In this document: positions 3,827 through 28,285 of the stretch, piece after piece | How positions within the stretch are numbered: position 1 is the first letter of the stretch | Layout: each line of letters opens with the position of its first letter | From: Streptomyces sp. NBC_01551 | GTDB lineage: Bacteria; Actinomycetota; Actinomycetes; Streptomycetales; Streptomycetaceae | Reading direction: 5' to 3' | Length of the DNA: 64,000 nt | Assembly: GCF_026339935.1 (NCBI RefSeq) | Contig: NZ_JAPEPX010000001.1 | Coordinates: forward strand, 5,793,501 to 5,857,500 | The notes under the pieces: model-generated | The model's database searches: none | Told to the model about the DNA's origin: nothing | Seen by the model: the letters and a program-made list of their open reading frames with translations, nothing else | Position numbers and translations under genes: made by a program

Positions 3827-4393
3827 ATGGCGCTCGAACACGCGATCCTCGTCTCGCTGCTGGAGAAGCCGGGCTCAGGCTATGAGCTCGCCCGGCGTTT
3901 CGGCCGGTCCATCGGCTACTTCTGGACCGCCACCCACCAGCAGATCTACCGCGTGCTGGGGCGCATGGAGAGCGCCGGCCTGCTCGTCGTCCGCGAGGTC
4001 GCACAGCAGGGCCGGCCGGACAAGAAGGAGTACTCCGTCGCCGCCCCCGGCCGCGCCGCGCTCTCCCAGTGGCTGCACGAGCCGATCGAGCCCGAGAGCC
4101 TGCGGCACGACCTCGCCGTCAAGATCCGCGGCGCGGCCTTCGACGACCCCGCCGCGCTGGTCCGCGAGGTCGAACGGCACCGCCAGGTGCACAGCGACCG
4201 CCTCGCGCACTACCTCGCCGGAGAACTGCGCGACTTCACCGGCCCCGACGCCCCCGCAGTGCCCGACGCCGGACAGGAACTCCAGCACGTCGTGCTGCGC
4301 GGCGGCATCGCGTACGAGCGCATGACGATCGCCTGGCTCGACGACGTACTCGCCACCGTCCACCGGATCGGCGCGCCCCGCCCGCGCGCCTGA
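3827..4393 (+). CDS. PadR-family transcriptional regulator
   Basis: 188 residues. The N-terminal PadR winged helix is clear: LEHAILVSLLEKPGSGYELARRF, then TATHQQIYRVLGRMESAGLL and a wing with KKEYSVAAPG. The C-terminal half is the helical dimerisation domain of the larger VirR/AphA-like class (WLHEPIEPE, then a long helix around VREVERHRQVHSDRLAHYLAGEL). The usual length of this class is 180-190 residues. It sits 72 bases upstream of an acyl-CoA dehydrogenase gene in the same direction, and a perfect palindrome lies just before its start, pointing to an autoregulated repressor controlling that enzyme. The inducer is unknown. Confidence 0.92.
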   Translation: MALEHAILVSLLEKPGSGYELARRFGRSIGYFWTATHQQIYRVLGRMESAGLLVVREVAQQGRPDKKEYSVAAPGRAALSQWLHEPIEPESLRHDLAVKIRGAAFDDPAALVREVERHRQVHSDRLAHYLAGELRDFTGPDAPAVPDAGQELQHVVLRGGIAYERMTIAWLDDVLATVHRIGAPRPRA

Positions 4394-4465
4394 GCCGCTC
4401 CGCCCCCCGCATCTTCGTCAACGCCGCACCCGGCGACCCCTCAATCCCTCGGAAGGCGAACCTCC

Positions 4466-6187
4466 ATGGCCGACTCCCTGCTGTTCAACCCGCGCACCTA
4501 CGACCCGCAGCACTTCGACCCCGAGACCAGCAGGCTGCTGCGCGCCACCGTCGACTGGTTCGAGGAGCGCGGCAAGCGGAAGCTGATCGAGGACTACCGC
4601 ACCCGCGCCTGGCTGGGTGACTTCATCGCCTTCTCCGCCAAGGAAGGCCTGTTCGCCACCTTCCTCACCCCCGCCTCCGCCGCCGACGGCCGGCCGGACC
4701 AGCGCTGGGACACCGCCCGCATCGCCGCCCTCAACGAGATCTTCGGCTTCTACGGCCTCGACTACTGGTACGCCTGGCAGGTGACCATCCTCGGCCTCGG
4801 CCCCGTCTGGCAGAGCGACAACGCCGCCGCCCGCGCACGCGCCGCCGAACTCCTCTCCCAGGGCGAGGTGTTCGCCTTCGGCCTGTCCGAGAAGACCCAC
4901 GGCGCCGACATCTACTCCACCGACATGCTGCTGGAGCCCGACGGCGAGGCCGGGTTCCGCGCCACCGGTTCCAAGTACTACATCGGCAACGGCAACGCCG
5001 CCGGTCTCGTCTCCGTCTTCGGCCGCCGCACCGACGTCGAGGGCCCGGACGGCTACGTCTTCTTCGCCGCCGACAGCCGCCACCCGGCGTACCACCTGGT
5101 GAAGAACGTCGTCGACTCCTCGAAGTACGTCAGCGAGTTCCGCCTGGAGGACTACCCGGTCGGCGCGCAGGACGTCCTGCACACCGGCCGCGCCGCCTTC
5201 GACGCCGCCCTCAACACCGTCAACGTCGGCAAGTTCAACCTCTGCACCGCCTCCATCGGCATCTGCGAGCACGCGATGTACGAGGCCGTCACCCACGCGC
5301 AGAACCGCGTCCTCTACGGCCGCCCCGTCACCGCGTTCCCGCACGTGCGCCGCGAGCTGGCCGACGCGTACGTCCGGCTCGTCGGCATGAAGCTCTTCAG
5401 CGACCGCGCCGTCGACTACTTCCGCACCGCCGGCCCCGACGACCGCCGGTACCTCCTCTTCAACCCGATGACGAAGATGAAGGTGACCACGGAGGGCGAG
5501 AAGGTCATCGACCTGATGTGGGACGTCATCGCCGCCAAGGGCTTCGAGAAGGACACGTACTTCGCGCAGGCGGCCGTCGAGATCCGCGGCCTGCCCAAGC
5601 TGGAGGGCACCGTCCACGTCAACCTCGCGCTGATCCTCAAGTTCATGCGCAACCACCTGCTGGACCCGGCCGAGTACGCGCCCGTCCCGACCCGCCTCGA
5701 CGCGGCCGACGACGACTTCCTCTTCCGCCAGGGCCCGGCCCGGGGCCTGGGCTCCGTACGCTTCCACGACTGGCGCCCCGCCTTCGACGCGTACGCCGAG
5801 GTGGCGAACGTCGCCCGCTTCCGCGAGCAGGCCGACGCGCTGTGCGCCTTCGTCACCACCGCCGCCCCGGACGAGGAGCAGAGCCGTGACCTCGACCTGC
5901 TCCTCGCCGTCGGCCAGCTCTTCGCGCTCGTCGTCCACGGCCAGCTGATCCTGGAGCAGGCCCGCCTGACCGGCCTCGACCAGGACGTGCTGGACGAGCT
6001 GTTCTCCGTCCTCGTACGCGACTTCTCGGCGCACGCCGTCGAGCTGCACGGCAAGGACTCCGCCACCGAGCAGCAGCAGGCCTGGGCTCTCGGCGCGGTC
6101 CGCCGCCCGGTCGTCGACGAGGCCCGCGCGGCCCGCGTCTGGGCCCGCGTCGAGGCCCTCTCCGGCGCCTACGAGATGGCCCCGTAA
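4466..6187 (+). CDS. Acyl-CoA dehydrogenase family flavoprotein
   Basis: 573 residues. The core has the acyl-CoA dehydrogenase layout: an N-terminal helical part, the FAD-contacting FAFGLSEKTHGADIYSTD (about 143-160), the beta domain with TGSKYYIGNGNAAG, and a C-terminal helical domain with FNLCTASIGICEHAMYEAVTHAQNRVLYGRPV. It is longer than the usual 380-390 residues, with about 150 extra C-terminal helical residues, as in the larger acyl-CoA oxidase-like members. The ATG follows GGAAGGCG. It would use FAD to introduce an alpha-beta double bond in an acyl-CoA in the cytoplasm. The adjacent PadR gene suggests induction by its substrate or a related aromatic or fatty acid. A 13-bp hairpin follows the stop. 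Confidence 0.85.
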   Translation: MADSLLFNPRTYDPQHFDPETSRLLRATVDWFEERGKRKLIEDYRTRAWLGDFIAFSAKEGLFATFLTPASAADGRPDQRWDTARIAALNEIFGFYGLDYWYAWQVTILGLGPVWQSDNAAARARAAELLSQGEVFAFGLSEKTHGADIYSTDMLLEPDGEAGFRATGSKYYIGNGNAAGLVSVFGRRTDVEGPDGYVFFAADSRHPAYHLVKNVVDSSKYVSEFRLEDYPVGAQDVLHTGRAAFDAALNTVNVGKFNLCTASIGICEHAMYEAVTHAQNRVLYGRPVTAFPHVRRELADAYVRLVGMKLFSDRAVDYFRTAGPDDRRYLLFNPMTKMKVTTEGEKVIDLMWDVIAAKGFEKDTYFAQAAVEIRGLPKLEGTVHVNLALILKFMRNHLLDPAEYAPVPTRLDAADDDFLFRQGPARGLGSVRFHDWRPAFDAYAEVANVARFREQADALCAFVTTAAPDEEQSRDLDLLLAVGQLFALVVHGQLILEQARLTGLDQDVLDELFSVLVRDFSAHAVELHGKDSATEQQQAWALGAVRRPVVDEARAARVWARVEALSGAYEMAP

Positions 6188-20289: not shown

Positions 20290-21732
20290 TCAGGAGCACA
20301 GGACGTGCACCAGGGCCTCCAGTGCGGAGTTGTCGAGAGTGGTGCGGTGGGCGAGTTTGTTGCGGGACATCCACAGGGTGCGCAGCCGGTCGGCCTCCGG
20401 CTGGGTGAGCCGTACGTGGCCCTGCAAGTGAGCGCGCCACATCGCGCCGAGTTCCATTTCGGCCCGCTGGCCGTAGAGGACGGCGAGTTCGGTTGCGGGG
20501 AGGCGTGAGCGGACCCCGATGACCTCGGTGAACTGCTCACGCGCCTCGTCGAGCAGGGGCAACAGGGCGTGATTCTGAGCCAGCCAGATACGGGCGCGCA
20601 CACTGTGCTCGTGTTCGCCCGCGCCGTCGGGGCGGCGGCGCAGCCGCCCGTCCCACCTGTCGAGCGTGCCCAGGTTCCATTCGGGGCGCAGCGAGGCGTT
20701 CGGATGGAGCAGGGCCGCGGTCGGCTCCGTCTTACGCGGGCCGGGCACGGGGATCGGGTCGGGTACCGGTCCGGCCGTGAGCAGCCGCAACTGCGAGGGA
20801 AGGCTGTCCGGGAGTCCGTCCCACTCGACCGCCAGTCGCGCCGCCAGATCGAGGAAGGGCCCGCACACTTCGACCACGGTGGCCTGCGCCACCGCTTCGA
20901 GGAGCTGGTGCCGGGCGGCCGGACCGGACGGGCGGGGCCGGGCCATGGCAACCACGGTGGCGGTGTCCAGCCGGCCGAGGGCACCCCACCACCAGTGCAC
21001 GCCGACATCCTCGCGCGCGATCTGCTCAGGCAGTTCCACGGGCAGCCCCGCTGACGTGGCCAGCACCAGCAGCCGCGGGCGCCGTCCCGGAGGCAGGCCG
21101 GCCGCCTTGACCGTGGCGGACAACCGCCGCAGCAGGTCGGTCGCAGCGGTCGGAGCCGGTTCCCGCCAGCCGCGCACCACGATCACCCGGGTCGCGTCAG
21201 GGCCGCCCGCAGCGGTGGTGAGGCGTTCGAGGAGACCCTCGATCCCCGTGTGCCCCCCCTGGTACTCGCCGGAGACCGAGTCTCCGAGTTCCTTGGCGAT
21301 CCGGTCGGCCAGGGCAGGGACGCCGGACTCCTCCCGCTGGACGTCTGGGGCCGAGGCCGCACGAGCCTGCGGAACCGCCGCGTCGTGCGCCCGCACGGCC
21401 GAGAAGGCGGACAGCCCGTCGTCGTAGTCCAGGATCGGGTCCGTACCGCCCCACGGGTCCGAGGGCGCGGGCGGCGGTGGGGCCGGGGCAAGGCTCCCGG
21501 GCGCCGCGCCGTCGCCGGGTGCGGGAACGAGGACGAAGTCCGCCAGTTCGTGGAGCAGCTCGTCCAGCAGGGCTTCGGCGGCGGCCGGTACGCCGGTCAA
21601 CTGGGCCTGCGGGAACAGGCAGAGGCAGCTCTTTCCCGCCCGAAGGTCACCCAGCAGCCGCCGCATCCACAACCGCACTCCGGGCAGCGCGGTCACCGGG
21701 GTCCCGGAGGGCGCGTGGGACACGGGAGTCAC
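20290..21732 (-). CDS. Walker-A protein with C-terminal HEPN-like RNxxxH motif (partner of the giant ATPase)
   Basis: I do not recognise this 480-residue protein as a named family. The start is GTG at 21732, which overlaps the upstream giant ATPase stop as GTGA, so translation is coupled. Residues 28-35 read GDLRAGKS, a formal Walker A; I see no clear Walker B. The middle has an NTPase-like strand-helix pattern (RVIVVRGWREP, then RRPRLLVLATSAGLP and VHWWWGALGRLDT). The C-terminal about 90 residues are helical and contain WMSRNKLAHRT: R457-N-K-L-A-H462, an Rx4H motif in the sequence context typical of HEPN domains, many of which are RNases in toxin and defence systems. It may be the effector of the two-gene unit. 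The function is inferred from motifs only. Confidence 0.72.
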   Translation of the reverse strand: MTPVSHAPSGTPVTALPGVRLWMRRLLGDLRAGKSCLCLFPQAQLTGVPAAAEALLDELLHELADFVLVPAPGDGAAPGSLAPAPPPPAPSDPWGGTDPILDYDDGLSAFSAVRAHDAAVPQARAASAPDVQREESGVPALADRIAKELGDSVSGEYQGGHTGIEGLLERLTTAAGGPDATRVIVVRGWREPAPTAATDLLRRLSATVKAAGLPPGRRPRLLVLATSAGLPVELPEQIAREDVGVHWWWGALGRLDTATVVAMARPRPSGPAARHQLLEAVAQATVVEVCGPFLDLAARLAVEWDGLPDSLPSQLRLLTAGPVPDPIPVPGPRKTEPTAALLHPNASLRPEWNLGTLDRWDGRLRRRPDGAGEHEHSVRARIWLAQNHALLPLLDEAREQFTEVIGVRSRLPATELAVLYGQRAEMELGAMWRAHLQGHVRLTQPEADRLRTLWMSRNKLAHRTTLDNSALEALVHVLCS

Positions 21733-24700
21733 GACGGTTCCGACAGGACCTGGAGCGCCCGGAAGGTGATCCGGTCCAGCGAGCAGCCCTCCGGTCCGTC
21801 GTCCAGCACGCCGTGGTCGAGCAGTCGGCCCACGAGCGATCCGACTTCCTCGATCTGCAGCCCGGTGACCGAAGCGATGTCGGCATAGGCACACCCCTCG
21901 CCCGGTTCCACGTACTGACTCCACTCGGTCAGCACCTCTGTCAGACGGGTGTCGAGCTCGACCCGCTCCAGGTGCACACGGGCGAACTCACGCTGCCCGA
22001 TGAAGTCCCTGGCGTCCTCCAGGGCTGCTTCGAGCGTGGAGCCCTCCCGGGTGATGCGGTGCACGGTCCGCTCCAGCAGGTGGGGCCAGCCACCGGTGAG
22101 CTCGATGACCCGCCGCCGCTTGTCCGGCGTGTCGAACGGACACTCCGGCCAGGCGCGGAGACTGTCGGCGGTCCACCGTTCGGGACGCACCACGCAGGTG
22201 ATGAGTTCGTCCTTCTGGTCGAGCTCGGCCGGGTCCACCAGCAGGACGGCCGTCCGGTGGGGTACTCCGCCCTCCGGCGAAGAGGTATGGGCGTGCAGGG
22301 CCTTCGCCCAGTCGGCGACCTCGGCGGACCCGCGACCCCGGACGTCGGCCAGGAGCAGGAACGGTCGGCCGTCCGCGTTCTGCGTCAGAGCCTGGGGCAG
22401 GGCCCCGGCGGGCGCGTCCCGGAAGTCCAGTCCGCGCGCGGTGGAGTACGACTTCACCGCACGCTTCACGAGCGCCGGACCGTGGGCCTCGGTCAGGCAC
22501 ACCGCGGCCACTCCGGGCGCCGTCACCAGGTGCAGCTGGTGCTCCGTCAGCGGGCTGTAGCGGGAGATGCCCGCGCGGTCCGGCCCGACGAAGCGCCTGG
22601 AGAAGCGCGGGTTGTAGTCGTAGGGCAGGTCGAATTCGGTTTGGCGCAACTCGAGTTCGAGGTCTTCCCGGGTTCCCAGCATGCTGACGACGTTCGGGCT
22701 GCGGACGGCGTACAGACGCGCGTCGGCCAGCTGGATGAGCAGGCCCAGGCCGACCATCTCGTCCAGGTAGATCCGTACGTCGCTCGCGGTGAGCGAGCTG
22801 AACCCCTCCCGCCAACGCTCCTTGGCCGCCCTCAGGAGCTCGTCGGCGTCGTAGCCGTACCGGTACCGGTCCTCCTGGCTGCGCAACGCGATCACCAGGG
22901 CGAGGACCCGGTAGCGGTCCTCCAGGTTGATGGTGATCCGCAGCCGCTCGGCGATGTGGCGGTGGACCTGGGCGGATCCGGTCACGGACCGGACGTCCTC
23001 GTCGGTGACCGTGATGGGCCACTTCGCCGAGGCGAGCGACTTCCCGCGGAGCGTCGCGACGAGCCGCTCGCAGAAGATCTGGACCAGGCAGGCCTGGTAG
23101 TTCGTCGCGGCGAGTACCCGCCAGACCAGCTCGGGCCGCTCGAAGCGGTACCCGAACGCCGCCATCGGCTCGACGACCAGGCGCTGTGCCTCGGCCGGCT
23201 TCAGTGTGCTGATCAGCACGTCCGGGCCGCCGTGCGTCAGGGGCACGTTGGACAGGTGGCTGAAGCGCTGGACCTGGTGCAGACCGGCGAAGACGATTTT
23301 GAAGCGACGGTCGGTGCGGTCCATCAGCCCCTTGAGACGGAGCACGTTGGAGAACGTGGCCTCCCCGCCCCGCCCGCGTACGGCCTTGGAGTCCGCGGTC
23401 AGGAAGGCGTCGGCCTCGTCGGCGAGCACCAGCACCCGCCTGTCGTGACTCTCCTCCAGCCACCTCTCCACCCTGTCGAGCATCGCATCCGGGGCGTGGC
23501 CGGAATCCACCGACTCGCCCAGCACGCCCACGCGCTTCAGCTCGTCCTCGAGTACCGCCCAGATGCGCTCGGCCGGCTCGGCCTCACCCACTCCACGCGC
23601 CTTGAGGTCGACGTAGATGGCCTTGCGGCCGGGGGTGCCCGGGAAGGTCGCCTGCACCTTGCGCAGGAGAGCGGACTTGCCCAACTGGCGCCCGCCGTAG
23701 AGGAACAGCGCGCCGAGCGGGTCCGTGACGGCGGCGATCTCCTCCTGCCGCCCGTAGAAGACCTCCGGCGGCACGAGCCCGGCCACGAAGGGCGTGTACG
23801 GGTTGTACGCCGTCCAGGGCAGGGTCACGCGTTGGGTGGCCCGGAAGGATCGCGGCGAGCGCGCCGCGACCCAGCCGAACACGGCAGGGTCCACCACCAG
23901 CGCCTGTTGGGAGGAGGCGGTGCGCGCGCGGGCCGCCATCGCCCGGCGTCCGTTCAGCCCGAGCGGGTACAGGTAGAGGATCAGGCAGGCCCCGGAGTCG
24001 CTGCTGTCCAGCAGTTCCAGCGGGCTGCGGCCGCGCTGTTCGTCGGAGACCACGAGGATCGTGTACGAGGACGCGGCCGACCCCAGGGCGGCGACGTAAC
24101 CGGGCGCCGTCTCGCTCGCCCGAGCCCGGGCGGTGAGCCGCAGAACACCCCGCACCTCGTGCTGCTGGTCCCGGACGGGCGTCTGGGGGCATTCCAGCCC
24201 CAGCACGCGCAGGACCGACGGGATGTGCCGCTGCCACTCCGAGCCCCGGGTGGCGGGCCGGCACAGGGCGTCCCACGAGTCCAGCCCGCTCTTCGCGCCC
24301 TCGGTGAGGGGCTCCCCGTCCACGTAGAAGTCGGCCCAGGGCCGGGCGGAGTAGCCCTGGGCGCCGGCCTTGCGCACCCCGGACAGCTCGATCCCGGCGG
24401 TGAAACGCTCCAGCTCCGCCCCCGAGTCCGTACTGCTCCAGTCGGGGAGGGGTTTGCCCTCGCGCAGCAGCGCCAGACATTCCTCGGCGGTGACCGTGTC
24501 CCCGGCGTGGAGCAGCGAGGTGAGGCGCTGTAGTTCCTCCGCCGGGGGGTTCAACGCGGCCAGGCTTTCGTGGAGGCGCTCCACGTACTCCTGGACCTTC
24601 GCCCGCATCTCGCCCTCGAGGACGGTGATGCCGGCGCAGGCACGGCCGAACGCGCCCTCCGGGGCGGGTCGGCGCAGCTCTTCGAGGCGGCCGACGAGTT

Positions 24701-27578
24701 CCCGCTCCGTCTGCATGTCGAGCTGCTGGGTCCGCAGTTCGGCGAGGAGGGCGCTCGCCGCGGCGTGGGCCTTGCGGTGAACGGCACTCCAGCGGGTCCA
24801 CTCGGGGTCGCGCAGTTGCCGCCAGTCGCGGGGCACGGCTTCGAGGCCCTCCGGCAGGGCGGGAACGAGGTCCTGCTCCAGCGCCGAGACCAGGGCGTCG
24901 GCGAGATGAAGGTCGCCCCGCTCGAAGTACCTCCGGAGCACCGTGCGCACGTCGACCGGCTCCAGCAGCGTGAGCACCGCCTCCCCGAAGCCCTCCTCGT
25001 CGGGCCGGGGTGCCCCTTCGGCCGACCGCGGGAGCTCCGGCGCGGCGAGCAGAGCCTCCGTCCGGGGTTGGTCCATCACACGCGGGGCGTCGGGGTCACG
25101 CGCCGGGACGGCGGCGCCGGGTGACCGGTCACCCTCGAGCAGCCACGTGCGCAGCCGCAGCAGAGCGGCCCCTTCGACGCCCGGCGGGGGCGCTTCGTGA
25201 AGTACCTGGTCCAAGGCGTGGCGGAGGCCGGTGGTGCTGTCCGCTCGCTCGTCGACGGCGGGGGCGGCCAGCGCACGGGCACGGGACAACAGGTCGGACA
25301 CCTGCTCGATGCTGCGGAGCAGAGCCCTTTTGGCGGCGGCCTCGATCGGTTCCTTCGCCTGCTTCGGCGTGCGGATCTCGGCGTCGGCCTCCTCGATCAT
25401 GCGTTCCGCGGAGCCGCGCTTGCGGAAGAGCTCCCAGATCTGGTCGAGGTCGGCCGCTCCGGCGGTGCCGGCCGCCCAGGCGCTGACTCCGTCCAGAGCC
25501 TTCCCCAAGGGCTGGTCCGAGCCGATCAGACGGGTGCGGACCTGGGTCGCGCGGGTGTAGCCGATGCGCTGGCGCCGCAGGGCATCACGCAGTGCGGCGG
25601 CTTCCGAGGAGAGTTGGTCCGCGGTGAGTCCGGTCATGTCGTCGGTGGTGAGACGGGTCGCGCTCAGGTCGAGCCGGTGGTAGCGGCGCAGCGCGTCGAC
25701 GGCCCGTTCGAGGAGCTTGCCCCAGTTCCCGGGCACGGTGGAGGAGAGGTCCGTCTGGATCAGGAGGTCGTTGGGCCATCCCGCCAGCAGACCGGCCCGC
25801 AGCGAGGCCACGGCGGCGAGCACCAGGGCGGGCCGGTCGGCCTGGAGCAGCTGGATCTCCGGGTCGAAGCCGGTCATCACGGCCACGGCCTCTCCCTCGT
25901 CGCCGCAGGCGAAGGCGGCCTCGGCGAAGGCGAGGCAGTCGGCGCGGTGCGGGGGCTCCGCCGAGCCGGCCGTCGTCCAGTAGGCCTCCTGGAAGCGGCC
26001 CTGGCCGATCAGTCGGGCCACCGCGGCCTCGTCGTCGCCGGGCGTCGTCGGGGTCTTCCAGGGCAGGAAGGACGATTTCGCCGCGGCCGCCGGATCGAGG
26101 GCCGGGGCCGGCGTGTCCGTCGGGGCGCCGGAGGCTTCCGTGTAGGTCCGTTTCGACGGCGGGCTCTGTGTCCCCGCCGCGCGCGACCCGCCTTCGGTCT
26201 CGACCTCCCGAGTGGGGACGGATCCGGCGGCCGATGCCGCGGGCGGGGCGGGCGGGGCGGGCGTGGATGCCGCGGCCGGTTCGGCCTTGGAGGATCGGGC
26301 CGCGGCCGGCTCCGCATCCGGGACCGCTTCGGGCTCCGGCTCCGGCTCCGAGTGCGAGCCCGAGTCCGAGTCCGAGGGCACGGTCGACACCGCGACCGTG
26401 GCGGTCTCGACAGCCGGCTCCGGGACCACATCGGGTGCGTGGTTCTGCTCCGCCGTGAGATCCGGCGTCGGTTCCGTAGCCGGTTCCGTTGCCGGTTCGG
26501 ATCCCTCGCCGGGATCGATGCTCCGGGCGCGTTCGGGCGCGGCGGCGGGCAGGGCGTCGTCCGGCGGTGCGGCGGCATGGGCCCCCGCCGCCACGAGTTC
26601 GCCGATGCGCGCCTCGAGCGCGGTCAGTGACTGCTGCAGCGGTATGCGGTGCGGTGCGTCGGACGCGGTCCTGTCCAGGAGGACGCGAAGTCCCTCGCGG
26701 TCCTCATCCAGCCTGCGCAGCTCCTCGGCGCGCTCTGCCGCGGTGTCCCGCAGCTCCTGCGTGATCGCGTCGAGTTCGGCGAATCCCGCTTGCCCGGACC
26801 ACTCCCGGCCGTTGGCGGCGAGGCTGTCCGCGATGCGGGACCGAGCCTGGCGCCATTCCTCCAACCGCAAGGCCAGCAGACCCGGAACAGCCCGTCCCGC
26901 CTGGACCTGCCCCAGTGCCTCTTCCAACACCCGGCCCAGTTCCGCCGACCGCTCTCTCAGCACCTGCCGCGACGCAACCACCTGCTCCTCAGTGATCCCC
27001 ACGATCGACGGTTCGCCCTCTTCTCCTTGTATGACATCCGACTCGACGGCTTCCCCGTCGGCGTCGGATCCGTCTTCGGATCCGTCTTCGGCTTCGCCGG
27101 CCGGACGGCATGGTCCGTGGCCCCGCCCGCACCTGCACGGTGTCCCGGCGGCCGAGGCGGCCGCCCACAGGTCTTCCCAGTGGTCCCCGACCGACCCGCC
27201 GTCGGCGACGGGACGGTCGCAGAGGCCGTACAGGGTGATCTGCGCGAGCACGGGATCGACCTCGCTCAGCATCTGCCGCAGATGCTGAGCGGCGGGTGCC
27301 GACAACTGCTCCGCCGGATGTCCGTAACACCGCTCCAAGCGGTACATCGTCCAGCCCGAGGCATATTGCGCGATCGCCGCGAGGCTGCCCGCACTCGTGC
27401 GGCTCAGCCATGTACGAGCCGCCTGGACCTCGCGGCGCCGCAAGCGCGGCGCCAGCCCGTTCACGGCGGCGATTCCCGGTATGTGCGCCAACATGCCCGG
27501 GATCATGAGCAGTTCTCGGAGTGCGCGGTCGTCCAGCCCGGTCACCCAGGCGCGGAGCGCGTCCCCCTTGGTGTGCAT
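21729..27578 (-). CDS. Giant P-loop ATPase (1949 aa), candidate sensor of a conflict system
   Basis: Not a named family that I recognise. The start ATG at 27578 is chosen because similarity-like sequence begins there; an in-frame GTG at 27647 is possible. Layout: N-terminal helical region; a Cys-rich CRCGRGHGPC; a coiled-coil-like region around 190-330; a low-complexity acidic Pro/Ser hinge (about 340-490); a long helical repeat region; a mixed domain around 1130-1260; then NPYTPFVAGLVPPEVFYGR leading into Walker A GGRQLGKS (K1301) and Walker B VLVLADEAD (D1387), the layout of ATPase_2/STAND-like AAA proteins; a winged-helix region; a second, P-loop-less segment with ELTGGWPHLLERTVHRI, which reads like an ATPase lid; and a final winged helix. 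It overlaps the HEPN-like gene by 4 bp. Confidence 0.78.
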   Translation of the reverse strand: MHTKGDALRAWVTGLDDRALRELLMIPGMLAHIPGIAAVNGLAPRLRRREVQAARTWLSRTSAGSLAAIAQYASGWTMYRLERCYGHPAEQLSAPAAQHLRQMLSEVDPVLAQITLYGLCDRPVADGGSVGDHWEDLWAAASAAGTPCRCGRGHGPCRPAGEAEDGSEDGSDADGEAVESDVIQGEEGEPSIVGITEEQVVASRQVLRERSAELGRVLEEALGQVQAGRAVPGLLALRLEEWRQARSRIADSLAANGREWSGQAGFAELDAITQELRDTAAERAEELRRLDEDREGLRVLLDRTASDAPHRIPLQQSLTALEARIGELVAAGAHAAAPPDDALPAAAPERARSIDPGEGSEPATEPATEPTPDLTAEQNHAPDVVPEPAVETATVAVSTVPSDSDSGSHSEPEPEPEAVPDAEPAAARSSKAEPAAASTPAPPAPPAASAAGSVPTREVETEGGSRAAGTQSPPSKRTYTEASGAPTDTPAPALDPAAAAKSSFLPWKTPTTPGDDEAAVARLIGQGRFQEAYWTTAGSAEPPHRADCLAFAEAAFACGDEGEAVAVMTGFDPEIQLLQADRPALVLAAVASLRAGLLAGWPNDLLIQTDLSSTVPGNWGKLLERAVDALRRYHRLDLSATRLTTDDMTGLTADQLSSEAAALRDALRRQRIGYTRATQVRTRLIGSDQPLGKALDGVSAWAAGTAGAADLDQIWELFRKRGSAERMIEEADAEIRTPKQAKEPIEAAAKRALLRSIEQVSDLLSRARALAAPAVDERADSTTGLRHALDQVLHEAPPPGVEGAALLRLRTWLLEGDRSPGAAVPARDPDAPRVMDQPRTEALLAAPELPRSAEGAPRPDEEGFGEAVLTLLEPVDVRTVLRRYFERGDLHLADALVSALEQDLVPALPEGLEAVPRDWRQLRDPEWTRWSAVHRKAHAAASALLAELRTQQLDMQTERELVGRLEELRRPAPEGAFGRACAGITVLEGEMRAKVQEYVERLHESLAALNPPAEELQRLTSLLHAGDTVTAEECLALLREGKPLPDWSSTDSGAELERFTAGIELSGVRKAGAQGYSARPWADFYVDGEPLTEGAKSGLDSWDALCRPATRGSEWQRHIPSVLRVLGLECPQTPVRDQQHEVRGVLRLTARARASETAPGYVAALGSAASSYTILVVSDEQRGRSPLELLDSSDSGACLILYLYPLGLNGRRAMAARARTASSQQALVVDPAVFGWVAARSPRSFRATQRVTLPWTAYNPYTPFVAGLVPPEVFYGRQEEIAAVTDPLGALFLYGGRQLGKSALLRKVQATFPGTPGRKAIYVDLKARGVGEAEPAERIWAVLEDELKRVGVLGESVDSGHAPDAMLDRVERWLEESHDRRVLVLADEADAFLTADSKAVRGRGGEATFSNVLRLKGLMDRTDRRFKIVFAGLHQVQRFSHLSNVPLTHGGPDVLISTLKPAEAQRLVVEPMAAFGYRFERPELVWRVLAATNYQACLVQIFCERLVATLRGKSLASAKWPITVTDEDVRSVTGSAQVHRHIAERLRITINLEDRYRVLALVIALRSQEDRYRYGYDADELLRAAKERWREGFSSLTASDVRIYLDEMVGLGLLIQLADARLYAVRSPNVVSMLGTREDLELELRQTEFDLPYDYNPRFSRRFVGPDRAGISRYSPLTEHQLHLVTAPGVAAVCLTEAHGPALVKRAVKSYSTARGLDFRDAPAGALPQALTQNADGRPFLLLADVRGRGSAEVADWAKALHAHTSSPEGGVPHRTAVLLVDPAELDQKDELITCVVRPERWTADSLRAWPECPFDTPDKRRRVIELTGGWPHLLERTVHRITREGSTLEAALEDARDFIGQREFARVHLERVELDTRLTEVLTEWSQYVEPGEGCAYADIASVTGLQIEEVGSLVGRLLDHGVLDDGPEGCSLDRITFRALQVLSEPS

Positions 27579-27713: not shown

Positions 27714-28118
27714 CTAGGCTTTGCTCCACCCGGCTGTGCCGGAATACGAGTCCAGCAGGTCCACCACGAAGACCAGGGTCGACCCCGCCGGGATCAACGG
27801 CGATGGCGACTGATTGCCGTAGCCGAGACGCGGGGGAACGATGATCTCGCGCCGACCGCCGACCCTCATCCCCCTCACCCCCCGGTCCCAGCCCTTGATG
27901 ACCTTGCCACTGCCCAGGGCGAACTTGTACGGCTGGCCCCGGTCCCAGGAGGCATCGAACTCCTTCCCGGACTCGAAGGTCACCCCGACATAGTGGACCC
28001 TCACCACCATGCCCGGCTTCACCTCGGCCCCGTCCCCGACGACCAGGTCCCGGATGGTCAGCTCGGTAGGAGCGTCACCCTCCGGAACCTCGACCTCGGG
28101 CTTCGTCGGTTCACTCAT
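27714..28118 (-). CDS. FKBP-type peptidyl-prolyl cis-trans isomerase
   Basis: 134 residues, a single FKBP domain after a short acidic N-terminus. The core motifs are VRVHYVGVTFESGKEFDASWDRG, FALGSGKVIKGWDRGVRGMRVGGRRE and VPPRLGYGNQSPSPLIPAGSTLVFVVDLL. Most aromatic and hydrophobic residues that line the FK506/proline pocket (Y, F, D, W, Y, F) are in place. There is no signal peptide, so it acts in the cytoplasm as a folding helper. The ATG at 28118 has GAGG upstream; a longer frame from 28169 has no ribosome site. It is transcribed in the same direction as the giant ATPase gene but 135 bases separate them, so it is probably the local core gene rather than part of that unit. Confidence 0.92.
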   Translation of the reverse strand: MSEPTKPEVEVPEGDAPTELTIRDLVVGDGAEVKPGMVVRVHYVGVTFESGKEFDASWDRGQPYKFALGSGKVIKGWDRGVRGMRVGGRREIIVPPRLGYGNQSPSPLIPAGSTLVFVVDLLDSYSGTAGWSKA

Positions 28119-28285
28119 TGCAGCCTCATTCACTCTCCGTCGAAAGCCCCGCACGGACCAGCCGGACACATGGACACCCCATGCGGCTGATGGTCACGTT
28201 ACCGAGAATGCCGATCCCCGGAGCGCGGCCTCGCAGCCGTGGGTGACCGGAGAGTGTGACCTCCAGCGCCAGCCGCTCCAGCCCG

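Follow-up and report, generated by a model that had tools for sequence, protein, structure and literature searches.

The two overlapping genes A and B of Streptomyces sp. NBC_01551, located within a stretch of 64,000 nucleotides (the window), probably constitute a two-gene, horizontally moving immune system of the abortive-infection type, as judged from sequence comparison. A encodes a giant ATPase and B its partner protein, whose C-terminus is likely a HEPN RNase. A preliminary description, made from the DNA letters and their open reading frames, had proposed both genes; they were found to be open at the coordinates it gave, and their sizes and their 4-bp overlap (GTGA) were borne out (Table 1). 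A search of the whole genome identified B as a single copy. Likewise, the genes reported to flank the pair were recognized by Pfam as OpuAC and FKBP matches. The FKBP gene (27714-28213), which adjoins A, was ruled out as part of the A-B unit, as it recurs beside other genes in six further Streptomyces genomes: in these genomes, which were fetched from among the best matches of its search, 414-514 bp recur with 82-95% identity and the FKBP-type copies adjoin different genes each time. The FKBP-type gene hence looks like a wandering single gene and not like a fixed landmark. Relatives of two other window genes (3827-6187) apparently lie at a distance of about 1 kb from the pair in the S. toxytricini locus (L002), although in the window these two genes are some 14 kb away from it.

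Table 1. Position of genes A and B in the window and of the domains and motifs assigned to their products.
Feature	Position	Strand	Basis or remark
Gene A: giant AAA+ ATPase (ORC/STAND-like)	21729..27578	-	1949 aa, ATG start
A residues 1-335: variable N-terminal region, candidate sensor	26574..27578	-	alignment
A residues 340-515: Pro/Ala/Glu-rich linker, length variable	26034..26561	-	alignment
A residues 517-1135: conserved region, helical from residue 840	24174..26030	-	alignment; model of 840-1949
A residues 1140-1255: small alpha/beta domain preceding ATPase, highly conserved	23814..24161	-	model
A residues 1274-1440: AAA+ core	23259..23759	-	Pfam AAA_22 E=3e-6; model; Foldseek
A Walker A GGRQLGKS, residues 1295-1302, K1301	23673..23696	-	K1301 invariant 18/18
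A Walker B, D1387 and E1388, in LADEADAF	23415..23432	-	invariant 18/18
A residues 1554-1636: winged-helix-like region after ATPase	22671..22919	-	model secondary structure; assigned by eye
A residues 1661-1840: second alpha/beta AAA-like domain, no P-loop	22059..22598	-	model strands; AAA by eye
Gene B: partner protein of A	20290..21732	-	480 aa, GTG start, 4-bp overlap with A
B residues 12-320: probable degenerate AAA/STAND-like domain, no conserved P-loop	20773..21699	-	model; Foldseek best E=0.11
B GDLRAGKS, residues 28-35, P-loop not conserved	21628..21651	-	GK in 2/22
B residues 372-480: HEPN-like helical bundle	20293..20619	-	model; HEPN_Swt1 below cut-off in 5/22 members
B RNKLAH, residues 457-462, predicted RNase active site	20347..20364	-	R, H 32/32; N 30/32

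Domain architecture of the two proteins

The AAA/STAND-like P-loop read earlier from the sequence of A was substantiated, as K1301 and D1387 are invariant in all 18 aligned A proteins. The only Pfam match of A above its cut-off was AAA_22 (residues 1289-1437, 28 bits versus a cut-off of 27, E=3e-6), with AAA_16 and ATPase_2 being weaker. In the model of residues 840-1949 (pLDDT 79.1, pTM 0.68) the chain starts with helices, continues with the small alpha/beta domain, whose strands span about 1145-1229, and then forms the AAA+ core, the winged-helix-like region, the second alpha/beta domain and terminal helices. The second alpha/beta domain is without a P-loop, the pattern G-x4-GK[ST] matching once per protein in 15/15 A-like proteins. 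Comparison of this model with known structures by Foldseek yielded 105 chains at E<=0.001, led by RuvB (3.0e-6) and Cdc6/Orc1 (3.2e-6). Among the best 50 of these 105 were also SSO1545 and PABY2304 (TM by target 0.50 and 0.54), both of which we take to be STAND-like, further CED-4, and tandem-AAA proteins such as NSF and p97, which aligned over 630-690 columns. The fits are partial and their rmsd is often high, and therefore the fold class alone is claimed, i.e., going by the model, A has an AAA+ fold. As to an ORC/STAND subclass, Cdc6/Orc1, SSO1545, PABY2304 and CED-4 match, but RuvB, NSF and p97 do so likewise. A single-sequence search of A against the PDB returned nothing at E<=0.1, and in the PHROGs no family was found beyond one at E=0.033.

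For B, an RNxxxH motif at the C-terminus had been pointed out before, and R457, N458 and H462 are indeed present in 22/22 aligned B proteins. When the last 40 residues of B were shuffled, RNxxxH arose in 215 of 20000 cases, so that one copy is weak evidence and conservation carries the weight. Conservation was followed in an alignment of 32 rows, composed of the 22 B proteins and ten distant B-like proteins chosen with the B profile (E<=5.4e-10 against the B model for 15 sequences, lowest score 28.6 bits); left out were the Euzebya protein (weak, E=0.008), two Bosea ORFs, a Brasilonema helicase and the DinG protein of genome G513. R457 and H462 are the sole columns with one letter across all 32 rows, which cover three phyla, and N458 is found in 30/32, being replaced by R in two Azospirillum rows. 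Among rows with a letter, D256 (31/31) and G18 (30/30) are uniform as well. In the AlphaFold model of B (480 aa, pLDDT 77.5, pTM 0.76) a linker of low confidence joins an alpha/beta domain to a helical bundle at the C-terminus, where pLDDT is 95-97 around the motif; RN closes helix 444-461, and H462 lies in the loop preceding helix 468-479. According to the excerpted text of PMC3710099, the motif of the HEPN active site locates to the end of helix 3 or the start of the loop to helix 4. The position in the model fits this description, and R and H, spaced in accord with the Rx4-6H motif of the HEPN superfamily, are identical in 32/32 rows; the HEPN reading of the B C-terminus, as put forward earlier, was thus supported. 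The Pfam family HEPN_Swt1 matched B below its curated cut-off (best E=0.02, 15.6 bits versus 27.5), and did so below cut-off in 5/22 B members (E<=1) and in two distant relatives. R398, which is present in 29/32 rows and has acidic residues nearby, differs in spacing from the Ex3[KR] of HEPN helix 2. From motif conservation and model, the B C-terminus is likely a HEPN RNase with R457 and H462 as the active pair, RNase activity being predicted.

The Walker A motif proposed for B (GDLRAGKS) did not withstand comparison. It is P-loop-like in the window and in the nearest relative only, with GK in 2/22 aligned B proteins and GR, GL or GS in the others, and B was hence ruled out as a P-loop ATPase. 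A Foldseek search with the whole B model gave no match at E<=0.001 (best E=0.11) and 442 matches at E<=10, of which the best 50 are AAA+ and other P-loop NTPases, including chains of archaeal ORC2, ORC, Dark, NRC3, CED-4 and BrxC. The model thus suggests, without proving it, that the N-terminal domain of B is a degenerate ORC/STAND-type AAA domain. B gave no Pfam match above cut-off, nothing at E<=1 in a single-sequence search of the PDB and no family in the PHROGs. The B protein of S. toxytricini (L002:16516-18948) comprises 810 aa, as its linker contains about 300 additional residues inserted in frame.

Pairing, distribution and genomic sites

A pattern scan for A over 84,980 species genomes, which detects close relatives only, identified 13 loci, each with B directly downstream (13/13). 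Among 295 Streptomyces genomes B was found in at least 15, the window's own included, this count being a lower bound as few candidates were scored per genome, and A adjoins B in 14 of these 15; the exception (G217) possesses a B remnant with no A within a 19-kb stretch. Conserved pairing, which had been named as support for a functional unit, was thereby confirmed for the close family. At the level of the phylum, B was found in 3/198 sampled genomes, or in 6/396 when searched with a profile, of which one (G410) failed to hold up, and the class sample, which overlaps with the phylum samples, gave 7/394 B matches with three dropped. G410 was rejected because tblastn matched neither A nor B there, the three others (G763, G823 and G837) for matching positions 232-290 of the B model only, the weak match of G763 sitting in an ORF read as RuvB. 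With the B start codon chosen nearest to the stop of A, a 4-bp stop/start overlap was counted in 17/24 A-B pairs. The protein distance matrices of A and B correlate with r=0.98 (18 loci), a value reached in 0/2000 permutations among 13 clade-1 loci, and when four pairs of relatives were compared, dN/dS of either gene lay at 0.22-0.40. A and B co-diverge under purifying selection.

Variable locations, as anticipated in the preliminary description, were observed for clade 1 (the window, L001-L010, L012, L013, L035 and L037), where the flanking genes mostly differ between loci; L010 and L013 lie at a common site, and by eye L012, L039 and L006 have some neighbours in common. Clade 2 comprises seven chromosomal loci (L011, L032, L033, L034, L036, L038 and L040) between tldD- and fabG-like genes, which we take to be tldD and fabG. 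For this site 61 genomes were searched at the fabG locus and 30 were opened, whereby 26 of the 30 were found to be without the pair and to have the two flanking genes close together, two to carry the pair and two to be undecided. A conserved core locus with a housekeeping role, which had been considered at the outset, is ruled out by this empty site (26/30) together with the distribution of B (15/295). The pair is furthermore carried by the 927-kb plasmid of S. fungicidicus (WP_121548695.1 and WP_121548693.1, both annotated as hypothetical), whose copy groups with clade 2 in the tree; since long branches meet among the distant rows, shallow groups alone were used from this tree. One such group (SH-aLRT 99) joins the copies of Actinocrinis, i.e., of another family, and Kitasatospora. 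Their A proteins are 75% identical, the Kitasatospora A being 58% identical to the window A and 65% to that of L004, and identity and grouping therefore suggest horizontal transfer. Judged from sequence distribution, the A-B pair is accessory, rare and horizontally moving in Streptomyces. For the seven clade-2 pairs at one site, old vertical inheritance with loss also fits. Among 50,697 phage records no match to B was found.

Wider family and neighbouring genes

A profile of the pre-ATPase domain of A matched in 5/296 genomes, including G329, which had already been found by B and contains A and B with RNRLAH as B motif, and G513. The A homologue of G513 (hhalign probability 100, E=1.9e-55, 1326 columns) is overlapped by a 1998-aa protein (L127:650-6646) in place of B, for which DEDDh, DinG-like and DpdF-like matches (RecQ-type by eye) were obtained. 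A tblastn search with the G513 A protein against 72,556 plasmids returned 24 records, 17 of which were read (16 regions and the S. fungicidicus region), L132, L134 and L144 being left out as broken or unannotated. A-like proteins are likewise encoded on plasmids of Proteobacteria, Cyanobacteria and Rhodothermota. A B-like partner was identified by profile for nine of 15 A-like proteins (E<=5.4e-10 for 15 sequences), i.e., those of S. fungicidicus, two Azospirillum, Microvirga, Bradyrhizobium, Agrobacterium, Methylocystis, Thiodictyon and Salinibacter. The A-like genes of Euzebya, Bosea, Brasilonema and G513 have neighbours other than B, and for those of S. xanthophaeus and NBC_01546 no partner was seen by eye. 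Six of these 15 proteins showed no B-like partner, and pairing is therefore strict in the close family only. In Euzebya, the A-like gene is followed by one for an 895-aa protein (L129:16251-18938) with a weak TPR match; its C-terminus gave no profile match for DUF2325, which by eye it presumably resembles.

The A-like proteins of Microvirga, Bradyrhizobium and A. oryzae are 3100-3394 aa long and carry pPIWI-RE X, MID and RNaseH domains at the N-terminus, all above the Pfam cut-off, and in A. ramasamyi the pPIWI-RE module is split over two ORFs. These fusions reside on alphaproteobacterial plasmids (L136:2075-12259; L137:2945-12247; L140:2693-12463), where they are preceded by a protein of 1126-1138 aa and then followed by a B-like protein (AAA_33 confirmed in L137). 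The B-like partners of A. ramasamyi and Bradyrhizobium end in a Pfam AAA_33 domain, which in that of Agrobacterium was matched below cut-off.

Several relatives of the pair lie near known defence genes, a finding that refers to neighbour proteins picked by eye and then scanned with PADLOC or Pfam, with no random-site control. The clade-1 loci with neighbours in the PADLOC scan were L003, L004, L005, L013 and L037 (five loci). Located near the pair were Wadjet-II JetA/B/C (L013), an XhoI-type (type II) R-M pair 0.2 kb from B (L003), AbiEii and a HEC-01A-like ATPase (L005), an OLD/GajA-like ATPase (L037) and generic GajB-like helicases (L004). In G329 the pair is flanked by genes for DruE and a DruK-like nuclease and, on its other side, by the PADLOC candidate PDC-S68, in G513 Wadjet-II JetA, JetB and JetC lie beside the A-like gene and its 1998-aa partner, and the Agrobacterium copy has an E2-ThiF-JAB gene and a patatin gene nearby. 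For L035 and L002 the neighbours picked matched no Pfam family, and the one picked for L041 is a carbohydrate-binding protein according to Pfam. The window copy, flanked by an osmoprotectant gene and the FKBP gene, has no defence gene among the few neighbours examined with Pfam.

Proposed function and relation to described systems

The A-B pair had been interpreted as a sensor-effector immune or stress unit. This proposal is supported, the immune role being what we infer from pairing, mobility, partner exchange and the defence neighbours of some relatives. It is regarded as the likeliest role because of the partner swap in G513, the pPIWI-RE fusions and the defence-gene company of some relatives. 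The suggested mechanism assumes that A acts as an ORC/STAND-type AAA+ switch, whereby its N-terminal and helical regions together with the small alpha/beta domain would sense an invader-associated cue. ATP binding and hydrolysis at K1301/D1387 may next induce a conformational or oligomeric change in A, as its motifs suggest. The second, P-loop-less AAA-like domain of A may serve for docking the degenerate AAA-like domain of B, so that A would keep B silent until triggered and release it then. The released HEPN RNase is expected to cut cellular or viral RNA, upon which the infected hypha would stop growing and the phage would fail to spread. Such a switch would be modular, as relatives of A overlap a DEDDh-DinG-DpdF-like protein instead, and others form one protein with a pPIWI-RE guide-binding module; next to the latter comes a B-like protein, which in some has a kinase-like domain. 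Counted against an immune role were the location of the window copy outside an obvious defence island, HEPN scores below cut-offs, the lack of a B match among the phage records, the single site of clade 2 and the 6/15 A-like proteins without a B-like partner.

An alternative explanation, which we consider unlikely, takes the pair as a toxin-antitoxin or plasmid/island maintenance unit, with B as HEPN RNase toxin and A as ATPase antitoxin or chaperone, that keeps the island and has no anti-phage role. The overlapping gene pair, the HEPN-like effector, the patchy mobile distribution and the megaplasmid copy would all agree with it, and toxin-antitoxin genes are found nearby in some loci (Fic/Doc at L010; YefM/YoeB-like genes, read by eye, at L012 and L039). 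However, the cost of an antitoxin would be very high at about 2000 aa, with ATPase motifs under conservation and another AAA-like domain on top, and next to one relative of A the place of B is taken by an overlapping helicase-nuclease gene.

In PADLOC-DB 2.0.0 neither A nor B matched any family at E<=1, and in NCBIfam 20.0 nothing was found at E<=1. The earlier failure to match the pair to named systems was thereby reproduced for BREX and Avs, and as neither A nor B has a corresponding Pfam or PADLOC match, identity with BREX, DUF499 or Avs systems was ruled out. A related idea, to which we assign a low probability, is DNA targeting in the manner of BREX or DUF499 systems, where A as ORC-like ATPase would load onto or scan DNA and the HEPN domain would be a second-line suicide effector. 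This idea would be in line with the resemblance of the A AAA+ domain to RuvB and Cdc6/Orc1 and with the occurrence of a BrxC chain (E 0.46) and a chain of the BrxC-BrxB-PglZ complex (E 0.81) among the weak B matches (best 50 of 442). Fusions of HEPN to ORC-type DUF499 ATPases are known, as is BrxB as a dead STAND protein, according to the excerpt of PMC12839542. As described there, DUF499-centred BREX-related (BR/Hma) systems resemble A-B in coupling an ORC/STAND AAA+ ATPase to a HEPN RNase, and BREX BrxC with BrxB does so in combining an active ORC-like AAA+ protein with a P-loop-less STAND-domain protein. Yet flank comparison of the loci revealed no third gene in common, DUF499 and PADLOC matches are absent from A and B, B is a separate protein whose best conserved part is the HEPN site, and the excerpt of PMC12839542 describes no HEPN on BrxB.

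The Abi2/Swt1-like HEPN clade, one bacterial group of which is fused to the AAA+ ATPase DUF499, shares with B the Rx4H motif, the polar N after R, its placement at helix end and loop start and the helical bundle, as far as the excerpted portion of PMC3710099 describes them. B differs from this clade in its Pfam score (15.6 versus 27.5 bits) and in that its HEPN part lies C-terminal to a degenerate AAA-like domain within a separate protein. According to the excerpt of PMC7159879, the ternary vWA-MoxR-iSTAND systems also employ a dead STAND domain, comparable to that suggested for B, as component of a conflict system, but no third gene is conserved with A-B, a vWA gene being located near the S. 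fungicidicus plasmid copy only. A host regulatory or RNA-processing unit for development or stress, with no immune role, is highly improbable: seven clade-2 loci at one chromosomal site, purifying selection and the window copy without a defence gene seen alongside would suit it, but 280/295 Streptomyces genomes have no match, clade-1 sites differ, horizontal transfer is suggested and some relatives lie amid defence genes.

In Avs and other prokaryotic STAND immune sensors, a STAND-type switch ATPase is coupled to a nuclease effector. An immune A-B pair would differ from these in that its effector is encoded by a gene of its own, which overlaps that of the switch, and in that the ATPase of A is followed by another AAA-like domain; in addition A gave no PADLOC or nSTAND match, whereby PADLOC-DB presumably contains Avs models. 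The pPIWI-RE three-gene system (PMC3702460, excerpt) resembles the relatives of A in two ways: alphaproteobacterial A-like proteins include the X, MID and RNaseH domains of pPIWI-RE as a fusion, and the G513 partner comprises a DinG-like helicase. The excerpted text of PMC3702460 contains 0 mentions each of HEPN and AAA. The window pair differs from it in that neither A nor B has a pPIWI-RE match in Pfam, the module occurring in distant relatives only.

Tentatively, A may be seen as the common switch of a cross-phylum modular immune family, in which a giant tandem-AAA-like ATPase would pass recognition on to one of several exchangeable effectors, be it a HEPN RNase, HEPN combined with a kinase, or a DEDDh-DinG-DpdF-like protein. 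In the alphaproteobacterial plasmids, the recognition part would then be the fused pPIWI-RE, which as an Argonaute-like reader of guides would be coupled directly to a STAND-type switch firing a HEPN suicide RNase. If true, the fusions hint at what the enigmatic pPIWI-RE proteins might trigger. If the immune role of A-B holds true, Streptomyces and relatives would possess a new two-gene immune family without a model in PADLOC-DB 2.0.0, and a clean model of a STAND/ORC-type ATPase which restrains, and then releases, a separate HEPN RNase would be at hand. In its excerpted portions, the open-licence literature on HEPN/STAND, Streptomyces defence and pPIWI-RE held no description of the A-B pair, which may exist elsewhere. 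What appears to be new is the A-B pair, which matched no PADLOC-DB or NCBIfam model; the domain types are already known. An A-like and a B-like gene were also observed on a contig of the IMG/VR viral collection (L128:8001-11878).
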